Shown here one piece after another: positions 24,924 to 27,060 of a stretch of 64,000 nt of DNA (within the stretch, counting starts at the first letter, position 1; each line of letters begins with the position of its first letter). The position numbers and the translations under genes were made by a program. The DNA is taken from the NCBI GenBank assembly GCA_938027685.1, contig CALJAM010000009.1, positions 1 to 64,000 of the forward strand, read 5' to 3'. Source of the stretch: an uncultured Bryobacteraceae bacterium (lineage in GTDB: Bacteria > Acidobacteriota > Terriglobia > Bryobacterales > Bryobacteraceae). Under the pieces are notes generated by a model that was not told where the DNA came from, made no database searches, and worked only from the letters and a program-made list of their open reading frames with translations.

Positions 24924-24976
24924 TTCGCCTTTTCTTCGCCTGATCCCAGTATGGCTCACTTGCCCGCAGCTGTCAA
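24924..24976 (-). promoter_or_regulatory. dnaE2 promoter with direct-repeat operator
   Basis: On the minus strand TTGACA (24976-24971) is 17 nt from CATACT (about 24954-24949). Immediately downstream, over the expected start site, lies GGCGAA-N5-GGCGAA (24940-24924). The identical 17-mer occurs in the imuA promoter. A repressor there would block the start, as LexA does at other imuA-imuB-dnaE2 loci. The 11-bp repeat period matches that of the alphaproteobacterial LexA site, though the sequence differs. Confidence 0.75.
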
Positions 24977-25063
24977 GGCGCGCGTAAGAACCGGGAACAA
25001 GAAGCGCCGACGACGGATCCGAATTCGCCTCGGTTGCCATCGAACAGCGGAGAGAAGCTTCGC

Positions 25064-26338
25064 TCAGTCGTAACTGCCCGCGACGAACCATCCGCCGCGC
25101 ACGAGGTCCCTGTAAATTCGGTACAGGCCGCCGTCGGCCAGCGCCACGTCGTATTCCTCCCGGGCGTAGGCGTCCGCGGTCCACCAGTCGCCCGAAATGC
25201 GCCAGGGCCCAGAGACCTTCACTACGCGGCCGTGTACGCCCTGAGCCAGTAGGAGGCGCGGGCGTCCCTCCTGCTCCACGACCCGCGCGGGTCGTGGCGG
25301 GCGGAAGCGACGCAAGGCCAAGGCCACGGCGATCTCCCGAGACGGTCCAGGTGACCGTGCCTCTGCCACCACGAAGCGCTTCAGCCGGAAGGCATCCGGG
25401 CGGTGGGTATCGACCGCCTCCGGCGCGCCCACACGTCCTTCACCTACCAGGTTGCCCAGTCGGGCCAGGGTCAGCTCCAGCTTTTCCGCCTCCGGCTCCC
25501 GGGGAATAAACAGTCCCTGCTGGACCGATCGCGGGGCGGCGGGCACGGCGTGAAGGCGGAGGGCGCACACCGGGGCACGGGGCGGATGGGCCTCCAGGTC
25601 GAGCTGGAACAGTTTCAGGAAGGAGCGGGAGGAAAGCATCGGGACTGGCAAACGGTGTCGCCGCGCGTGTTTGCTGCCGTCCTGCAATGCCAGCTCCAGC
25701 TCCAGCTCGTGTACTGCGAGGGCGCGCTCGCGCAGCCGCTCGCAGAGCTGCCGGATCAACTGCGCCACAAGGAACAGCAGGGGCTCAAGCAACGCCACGG
25801 GATGTTCGAGCTCGATGGTTTCTTCGAACTCGTCGCTCCGCACGAGCGGAACCAGCGGGCGTTGCGAACGGCCACGAGCGAGCGTTTGCAGGCGGATGCC
25901 TTCCGCTCCCAGCCGTTCCGCGAGACCTCGCTCGGGTAGAGTGGCCAGCTCCCCTACCGTCCGCACGCCCCATAAAGCGAGCTTGAAGGCGATTTCCGGC
26001 GGCGGAACCAGGACTTCGACGGGCAGCGGCGCCAGCCATTGCGCCTCGTCTCCCGGGGGAACGATAGTAATGCCGGGATAGCCGCGGGCCACCAGCAATG
26101 CTGTATCGGGATCCGCCGCCACGCCGACGCGCGCCCGGAGGCCGGCGGCAGCGGCGTGCTGTGCCATCCGTCGGGCGGCCTGCTCCGGCGCGCCGAACAG
26201 CCGAGCCGTGCCATCGAACTCGAGCGTCACCGCGTCGGGCGCAGTGCGCTCGACGACCGGCGAAAAGGCGAGGGCGCACTCGATGAGCGTCGCCTCTTGT
26301 GAAGACGGCATCTCCGGCACGTGGAGGCAGGCGAACAT
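25064..26338 (-). CDS. imuB: DNA polymerase Y-family protein ImuB
   Basis: A 424-residue protein beginning MFACLHVPEMPSSQEA, with the Y-family layout: a palm/fingers region with FDGTARLFGAPEQAARRMAQ, a helix-hairpin-helix region (VRTVGELATLPERGLAERLGAEG) and a little-finger-like domain. ImuB proteins lack the catalytic carboxylates of true Y polymerases and act as a beta-clamp-bound hub that brings in DnaE2. In keeping with this, the usual DxD/SxDE motifs are not evident here. The ATG is 3 nt after the imuA stop, so the two form one transcript. Confidence 0.88.
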   Translation of the reverse strand: MFACLHVPEMPSSQEATLIECALAFSPVVERTAPDAVTLEFDGTARLFGAPEQAARRMAQHAAAAGLRARVGVAADPDTALLVARGYPGITIVPPGDEAQWLAPLPVEVLVPPPEIAFKLALWGVRTVGELATLPERGLAERLGAEGIRLQTLARGRSQRPLVPLVRSDEFEETIELEHPVALLEPLLFLVAQLIRQLCERLRERALAVHELELELALQDGSKHARRHRLPVPMLSSRSFLKLFQLDLEAHPPRAPVCALRLHAVPAAPRSVQQGLFIPREPEAEKLELTLARLGNLVGEGRVGAPEAVDTHRPDAFRLKRFVVAEARSPGPSREIAVALALRRFRPPRPARVVEQEGRPRLLLAQGVHGRVVKVSGPWRISGDWWTADAYAREEYDVALADGGLYRIYRDLVRGGWFVAGSYD

Positions 26339-26341
26339 GAC

Positions 26342-27001
26342 TTACCTTGCCCAAGCGGTACGGGCCAGGAAGGAGGCCGCCTCTCGATGGGGCGGCTTTC
26401 GCGGCGCAACTTCAAAGACACCGCCGACGAGCAGGCGGGCATTGGGTGCGCCGGACCACATTCCCCGCGCGCCCTTCATTTCCACCACCAGCGCGGCGCT
26501 GGTTCCGGTCACGGGCTGCGGGGTCACGACCAGCAGGACGGTTGGCGTGCCCTCGATCGCCCGGCGCAGGCGGAACCAGCACACCAGCGGGATCCGGCGC
26601 AGGATGCGAGACGGAATGTCGGCCAGGTCGAGCGCGATCAACCCGAAGCCGCCGGCGTTCGCCACCTGGTCTGCGGCTTTCAGAGAGCGCTCGGGATCGC
26701 CGCCGCAACGCACCCAGAGCAGGCGATCCAAAGGCACGCCGGCCTCCGCAGCGGCCACGGGATCGAAAGCGTCCCCGGCATCCACCAGAGCGCAGGTTTC
26801 CTGACGGGTGGCGGCGGTTGCCAGGGCCGTCCAAAGGAGGCTGGTGCGTCCGGAACTGGGCGGACCGCAGATTTCCGTGAGCGCACCGCGCGGCAAGCCG
26901 CCGGTAAGGCGATCGAGGGCGGTCAACCCCGAGGGCGCATAGTCGAATCGCGGGGGTTGCAGGCGGCTGGCCGGCAGGAGGGGATGGGGGAAAACGGCCA
27001 T
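26342..27001 (-). CDS. imuA: ImuA/RecA-like mutasome protein
   Basis: A 219-residue RecA/SulA-like ATPase-fold protein. After a short N-terminus, FDYAPSGLTALDRLTGGLPRG leads into a Walker-A-like loop GPPSSGRTSLLW (GPPSSGRTS, with R where K is usual). It is the first gene of the imuA-imuB pair next to dnaE2, and the family interacts with RecA and ImuB in damage-induced mutagenesis. The predicted transcript start lies only about 23 nt before the ATG, and the operator ends 7 nt upstream of it. Confidence 0.85.
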   Translation of the reverse strand: MAVFPHPLLPASRLQPPRFDYAPSGLTALDRLTGGLPRGALTEICGPPSSGRTSLLWTALATAATRQETCALVDAGDAFDPVAAAEAGVPLDRLLWVRCGGDPERSLKAADQVANAGGFGLIALDLADIPSRILRRIPLVCWFRLRRAIEGTPTVLLVVTPQPVTGTSAALVVEMKGARGMWSGAPNARLLVGGVFEVAPRKPPHREAASFLARTAWAR

Positions 27002-27007
27002 GGCGTT

Positions 27008-27060
27008 TTCGCCTTTTCTTCGCCATTCCCAGTTTGCCCTATCCCGCCCGGCTCTGTCAA
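27008..27060 (-). promoter_or_regulatory. imuA-imuB promoter with direct-repeat operator
   Basis: On the minus strand TTGACA (27060-27055), an 18-nt spacer and CAAACT (27036-27031) precede GGCGAA-N5-GGCGAA (27024-27008). The 17-bp repeat is identical to that at dnaE2, and the bases between -10 and operator (ACTGGGAT/ACTGGGAAT) are also nearly the same. This is strong internal evidence for coordinated control of the mutasome genes. Confidence 0.75.

Follow-up and report, generated by a model that had tools for sequence, protein, structure and literature searches.

A direct-repeat operator, probably read by LexA, at the imuA, dnaE2 and lexA promoters of a Bryobacteraceae (Acidobacteriota) genome

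The induction of genes through RecA-driven self-cleavage is established for LexA in general. The imuA-imuB-dnaE2 mutagenesis cassette was reportedly found by Abella in 2004 and Erill in 2006 to be regulated by LexA, and the LexA box of Acidobacterium capsulatum is said, after Mazon et al. in 2006, to be GTTC-N7-GTTC, with recA inducible there without a box. Passages of PMC8565304 and PMC9578287 describe GTTC-N7-GTTC as the direct-repeat LexA box of Caulobacter and the Alphaproteobacteria and put the LexA motifs reported by 2021 at 17, and direct-repeat recognition by LexA is said, in a passage of PMC7739468, to have arisen several times independently. Binding of Bacillus subtilis LexA at an mraZ homolog had been shown earlier (passage of PMC3998124), and MrfA and MrfB of this bacterium jointly counter mitomycin damage (passages of PMC11194089 and PMC12345164). 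Our search of the open-licence literature for an acidobacterial LexA box returned nothing beyond citations of Mazon 2006, and the open-licence passages on mrfA, mitomycin and LexA reported no LexA control of mrfA.

We compared with these systems a stretch of 64,000 nucleotides (the window; positions 1-64000 of contig C9) from a genome of 3.93 Mb in 45 contigs, 96.7% complete, of the family Bryobacteraceae (Acidobacteriota). The gene order imuA-imuB-dnaE2 is present in the window (Table 1). Profile searches gave 1291 bits for the dnaE2 product against NF004225 (cut-off 939), 53 bits for the ImuA-like protein against NF033429 (cut-off 150) and 23.1 bits for the ImuB-like protein against PF00817 (cut-off 23.2). 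Since the imuA and imuB matches are below their cut-offs, both of these names lean also on the gene order with dnaE2.

Table 1. Genes, promoter hexamers and LexA-type operators of the imuA-imuB-dnaE2 cluster (positions in the window)
Feature	Positions	Strand	Basis
dnaE2, error-prone DNA polymerase, 1040 aa	21760..24882	-	NF004225 above cut-off
LexA-type operator of dnaE2, GGCGAAGAAAAGGCGAA	24924..24940	-	exact match
-10 CATACT of dnaE2	24948..24953	-	promoter scan; 17 bp from -35
-35 TTGACA of dnaE2	24971..24976	-	promoter scan
imuB-like gene, 424 aa, Y-family-like	25064..26338	-	PF00817 just below cut-off
imuA-like gene, 219 aa	26342..27001	-	NF033429 below cut-off
LexA-type operator of imuA, GGCGAAGAAAAGGCGAA	27008..27024	-	exact match
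-10 CAAACT of imuA	27031..27036	-	by eye, 18 bp from -35; absent from promoter-scan list
-35 TTGACA of imuA	27055..27060	-	by eye; absent from promoter-scan list

The first-pass annotation of this DNA had noticed an identical 17-mer, GGCGAA-N5-GGCGAA, right after the -10 boxes of dnaE2 and imuA. Both copies are exact and begin 7 bp and 6 bp past the -10 hexamer, respectively, and the imuA copy ends 6 bp before the ATG. The bases between the -10 and the repeat match as it had claimed (ACTGGGAT at dnaE2 and ACTGGGAAT at imuA), and TTGACA is common to both promoters, being found by the scan at dnaE2 and by eye at imuA. Both copies of the 17-mer would overlap the transcription start, and they are the only perfect GGCGAA-N5-GGCGAA repeats within the window. 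A stem-loop at 26990-27010 on the plus strand, flagged by the scan as terminator-like on that strand, spans the imuA start codon and extends into the operator.

Ranking the sites of the whole genome by their mismatches to the 17-mer placed dnaE2 and imuA first (no mismatch), the lexA promoter second (one mismatch) and, at two mismatches, only the starts of an MrfB-like and an MrfA-like gene. The lexA site (C9:132671-132687) has the TTTTC spacer of the window copies and reads CTTGACTTTCCCCTTTTCTTCGCCCACAATGG in the lexA direction, so that the box lies between the -35 and the -10 and in the orientation opposite to that at imuA. A single LexA gene was found in the genome. Its product is a full member of TIGR00498 (178.7 bits, cut-off 110.95) that also matched PF01726 and PF00717, and its cleavage site (A95-G96) and its serine and lysine of self-cleavage (S128 and K166) are invariant across six aligned LexAs. 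The two sites with two mismatches directly precede the start codons of a 417-aa RNase-H-like exonuclease, which matches MrfB (8un9, E 3.6e-30), and of a DEAD-box helicase, which matches YprA (6znp, E 2.3e-180), the MrfA of B. subtilis. At these mrfA- and mrfB-like genes the box stands after the -10, likewise at imuA and dnaE2.

Relatives were tested with the hexamers of the first-pass annotation, without refitting, and the gap of 5 was compared with control gaps of 0-4 and 6-15. At lexA, a box with at most two mismatches was present at 23 of the 40 loci of a first set (other gaps, 1-12) and at 76 of the 80 loci of a second, named set made up mostly of Bryobacteraceae and Bryobacterales (other gaps, 2-27); these 80 loci are nearest relatives and overlap in part with the other sets, and the sequences compared are related in general. 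When three mismatches were allowed at lexA, the control gap of 6 climbed to 59/80 through slippage along the T tract, and the stricter mismatch counts were therefore used. Upstream of imuA, the box was present in 31 of 41 regions at one mismatch or fewer (other gaps, 0-2) and in 35 at two or fewer (other gaps, 3-9), and it was not found in the remaining six, one within the family (G009), four in the sister family (G026, G031, G033 and G080) and G082.

Comparison of the lexA loci with the recognition helices of their LexAs was made on a class-wide set of 29 loci, comprising 23 ATVHKH, 5 PATVQDH and 1 SPNGVASHL LexAs. The box was found at lexA for 22 of the 23 ATVHKH LexAs (control gaps, 0-4 of 29) and for none of the six with other helices. 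All five PATVQDH lexA loci carry ACCGAAC-N4-GTWCGG when two mismatches are allowed; the palindrome ACCGAAC-N4-GTWCGGT is that of the lexA loci L336, L342, L343, L345 and L350 (family f5) and of imuA in G082 (L113). This genome is the sole PATVQDH genome of the imuA set, and its imuA is without the TTCGCC repeat and has ACCGAACATTTGTACGGT between the -35 and the -10, a type of palindrome seen in 1 of the remaining 40 imuA regions with three mismatches allowed. For LexAs of the SxNGVxxHL type, the box was absent in 4/4 and GTAA-N4-TTAC was present in 3/4. At L017, L018, L023 and L353, an E. coli-like helix (SxNGVxxHL) occurs beside the ATVHKH type or replaces it, and palindromes like GTAAATACTTAC adjoin the start.

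With a T-rich spacer required, the box was present at 72 of 78 ATVHKH and both ATIHKH LexAs among the 80 named loci, and at 14 of 25 ATVHKH LexAs in a first set of 30 lexA loci. The 11 ATVHKH misses in the latter set were eight genomes of g25, two of g29 and G004, and the sites of the g29 pair and of G004 are recognisable at three mismatches. The sister genus g25 showed no lexA box at two mismatches or fewer in nine genomes, eight of these with the ATVHKH helix, and no box in its eight mrf regions. From sequence comparison, the presence of the operator follows the LexA recognition helix, genus g25 excepted.

The 17-mer is very probably the LexA operator of this Bryobacteraceae genome. This reading, which the first-pass annotation had offered as a possibility, is supported by the site at the genome's own lexA promoter, by the frequency of the box at lexA in the nearest relatives and by its match to the recognition helix. 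The behaviour of recA speaks for a different DNA-damage regulator that reads the repeat at imuA, dnaE2, mrfA, mrfB and lexA, as recA, a usual LexA target, is mostly without the box: none was found upstream of the genome's own recA, and a T-spaced box within 110 bp was present in only 3 of 40 recA regions of relatives, with 6 of 40 reaching one mismatch or fewer anywhere in the fetched stretch. A box at recA is usual, not required, in LexA regulons. We consider such a regulator unlikely, because the box at lexA comes and goes with the recognition helix of LexA itself, because lexA and imuA share one different palindrome in the PATVQDH genome, and because TTC cores repeated directly every 11 bp are the form known to be read by LexA in Alphaproteobacteria. 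Many Bryobacteraceae genomes (G015, G044, G050, G052 and others) have two full recA genes, some of them in tandem.

The dnaE2 survey covered 31 genomes, with a box defined by two mismatches or fewer; dnaE2 was counted as lying behind imuA when the two are no more than 2.2 kb apart on one strand of one contig. Outside the genus of the window, dnaE2 lies apart from imuA in 11 genomes, 9 of which have a box, and behind imuA in 17, none of which has one; this indicates that the box goes with promoters. One of the two exceptions among the 11, G082, seems to carry dnaE2 directly after an imuB-like end. Within the genus of the window, dnaE2 had a box in 3/3 genomes, in two of them inside the cluster. 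Matches at one mismatch located 130-155 bp upstream of dnaE2 in G009, G023 and G051 were left uncounted, as dnaE2 follows imuAB there and the matches are probably imuB coding sequence. The first-pass annotation had named, as grounds for refuting its reading, an absence of the motif from lexA/recA or other SOS genes of relatives; the reading passes this check through lexA and imuA, while recA mostly lacks the motif.

This survey bears on whether the two window copies are alike merely through duplication of a promoter, with no common regulator. The -35, the -10 and the ACTGGGA stretch are alike too, and the other genera of the family lack a box where dnaE2 follows imuAB, so that the dnaE2 copy may be recent. 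However, lexA, mrfA and mrfB also have the repeat, in unlike flanking sequence, and its gap stays constant from genus to genus. Counting only sites with a T-rich spacer, we found the box in 23 of 30 mrfA regions and in 18 of 29 mrfB regions, the latter count leaving out G024 (control gaps, 0-4 for each gene). Duplication may account for the origin of the dnaE2 copy but not for its retention, and as an explanation of the likeness it is very improbable.

Copies of the 17-mer expected by chance were calculated with a first-order Markov model on both strands. The genome contains two exact copies, those of dnaE2 and imuA only, while 0.0013 were expected, and the judgement of the first-pass annotation that the shared 17-mer is unlikely to be fortuitous is borne out on the scale of 3.93 Mb. 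One site was observed at one mismatch (0.056 expected), two at two mismatches (1.17 expected) and 23 at three mismatches (15.4 expected; a backward control gave 18 at three or fewer). The class with two mismatches is not above chance, and it is therefore the positions of its sites that carry weight. We rejected the 23 sites with three mismatches as operators, since their number agrees with chance. Perfect GGCGAA-N5-GGCGAA occurs at five sites genome-wide; the spacers of the three beyond dnaE2 and imuA are unrelated, and L001 and L005, which are among these three, fall within long open frames. A degenerate form of the site, TTCNCYTTTTVTTYGCC, was found at six genome sites with one mismatch or fewer, namely the five top-ranked sites and one 30 bp before gyrA, and the same pattern reversed gave no site in the genome-wide scan. 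The gyrA site, TTCGCTTTTTATTTGCC (contig C27:46700-46716, L086), stands about 30 bp before the gene and has three mismatches to the 17-mer while fitting the degenerate consensus. Chance alone, for which it can be said that GGCGAA is common at 65% G+C, that the two hexamers with two mismatches allowed match the window 22 times where 15.1 are expected (which makes bare hexamers weak evidence) and that exact GGCGAA-N5-GGCGAA lies somewhere in at least 95 of 101 genomes (too common to serve as a search pattern), is a negligible explanation in view of the two exact 17-mers and of a conservation in relatives that exceeds the gap controls.

Each gene has its own pattern of half-site defects. Of 78 lexA sites, 73 have TTCGCC as the second half-site, and 39 have TTCCCC, TTCTCT or TTCCCT as the first. 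The second half-site is TTTGCC in 14/19 at mrfB and TTTGCT or TTTGCC in 16/25 at mrfA, and at imuA the first and second half-sites are TTCGCC in 25/36 and 29/36, respectively. The operators may accordingly be graded in strength by gene.

Other genes may belong to the same regulon in relatives. TTCGCC-N5-TTCGCC was present in 13 of 29 regions upstream of mraZ (loci L419-L448) at two mismatches or fewer in either orientation (other gaps, 0-4); mraZ was not found in the genome of the window at E 0.001. We also collected 40 loci of relatives by eye among the matches listed, mostly for their A-rich spacers, and these are therefore examples that give no rates. The repeat is seen before mraZ, in the division cluster, at L212, L220 and L234, and boxes precede radical-SAM genes (L216, L221, L230, L233 and L246) and DUF72 genes (L223, L232, L235 and L245), one call of each kind being verified by Pfam. 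In four loci of G075 (L225-L228), the operator precedes an A/T-rich block that is similar in all four and ends in TTTTCCACA; these may be copies of a repeated element. G058 (L217:1407-1445) has four consecutive half-sites in 11-bp register, equal to three overlapping boxes.

If LexA is the regulator, a dimer would sit on two TTCGCC half-sites placed 11 bp apart (consensus TTCGCY-TTTTN-TTCGCY) and would block transcription. At dnaE2 and imuA it would cover the transcription start, and at lexA it would lie between the -35 and the -10; operators in either position are consistent with repression. DNA damage would lead to RecA-stimulated self-cleavage of LexA and free these promoters, upon which the ImuA-ImuB-DnaE2 mutasome, the MrfA/MrfB repair pair and LexA would be made. 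We observe directly the sites and where they lie, their conservation with a gap of constant length, their co-variation with the recognition helix of LexA, and a LexA gene that is intact and encodes the self-cleavage residues, and we infer from these observations that LexA would bind, repress and, on damage, release these promoters.

A broader reading joins these results, and we hold the chances of its being right to be even. The class around Bryobacteraceae would have at least three LexA recognition types with an operator each (ATVHKH with TTCGCY-TTTTN-TTCGCY, PATVQDH with ACCGAAC-N4-GTWCGGT and SxNGVxxHL with GTAA-N4-TTAC), and imuA would have switched operator along with LexA. The TTCGCY regulon would take in the MrfA/MrfB pair and, in many genera, mraZ, and would mostly omit recA. 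The order of induction would be set by half-site defects that differ between genes and persist from genus to genus, with a consensus site at imuA and dnaE2, a weak first half at lexA and a weak second half (TTTGCY) at mrfA and mrfB. Acidobacteriota are abundant in soil and have had little bench study, and a reliable LexA box would make their SOS regulon readable from genome sequence. The box would connect repair by MrfAB with SOS control and would offer a natural series of graded operators, and the paired changes of helix and operator within one class would be a tractable case of how LexA shifts its site yet keeps its regulon.

Comparison with the known systems showed likenesses and differences for each. 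The helicase and the exonuclease are homologs of MrfA and MrfB, the mitomycin-repair pair described for B. subtilis in passages of PMC11194089 and PMC12345164, their function here being predicted from homology, but the two genes are separate here and each has its own box. The Balneolaeota motif given in a passage of PMC7739468 is likewise a direct-repeat LexA box, with an unrelated sequence, TTACACATATTTTWTACATA. The first-pass annotation was right that the 11-bp period is that of the alphaproteobacterial site, since GTTC-N7-GTTC repeats with this period (passages of PMC8565304 and PMC9578287); the direct repeat and the TTC cores are shared as well, with LexA the probable regulator here. Some sites of relatives fit GTTC-N7-GTTC exactly (L221), whereas here the position before TTC shows no conserved G (C in 31, G in 21 and A in 18 of the 70 lexA second half-sites), the window sites read ATTC or TTTC and CTTC, and it is the GCC after TTC and the T-rich spacer that are conserved. 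The cluster has the same genes behind a LexA-type operator as the LexA-regulated imuA-imuB-dnaE2 cassette, but the operator sequence differs and a single cluster holds two boxes in the genus of the window. The Acidobacterium capsulatum box comes from the same phylum; the title of the 2006 paper names neither the family of the window nor mrfA or mrfB. The suggestion of a new LexA site therefore stands in part, for the variant TTCGCY-TTTTN-TTCGCY without a conserved G, and fails in that 11-bp direct-repeat boxes are known and that the box of Acidobacterium capsulatum was reportedly published in 2006. We regard the box as a form, peculiar to this lineage, of an operator type already known, and what it adds is new members of the predicted regulon and the co-variation of LexA with its operator.
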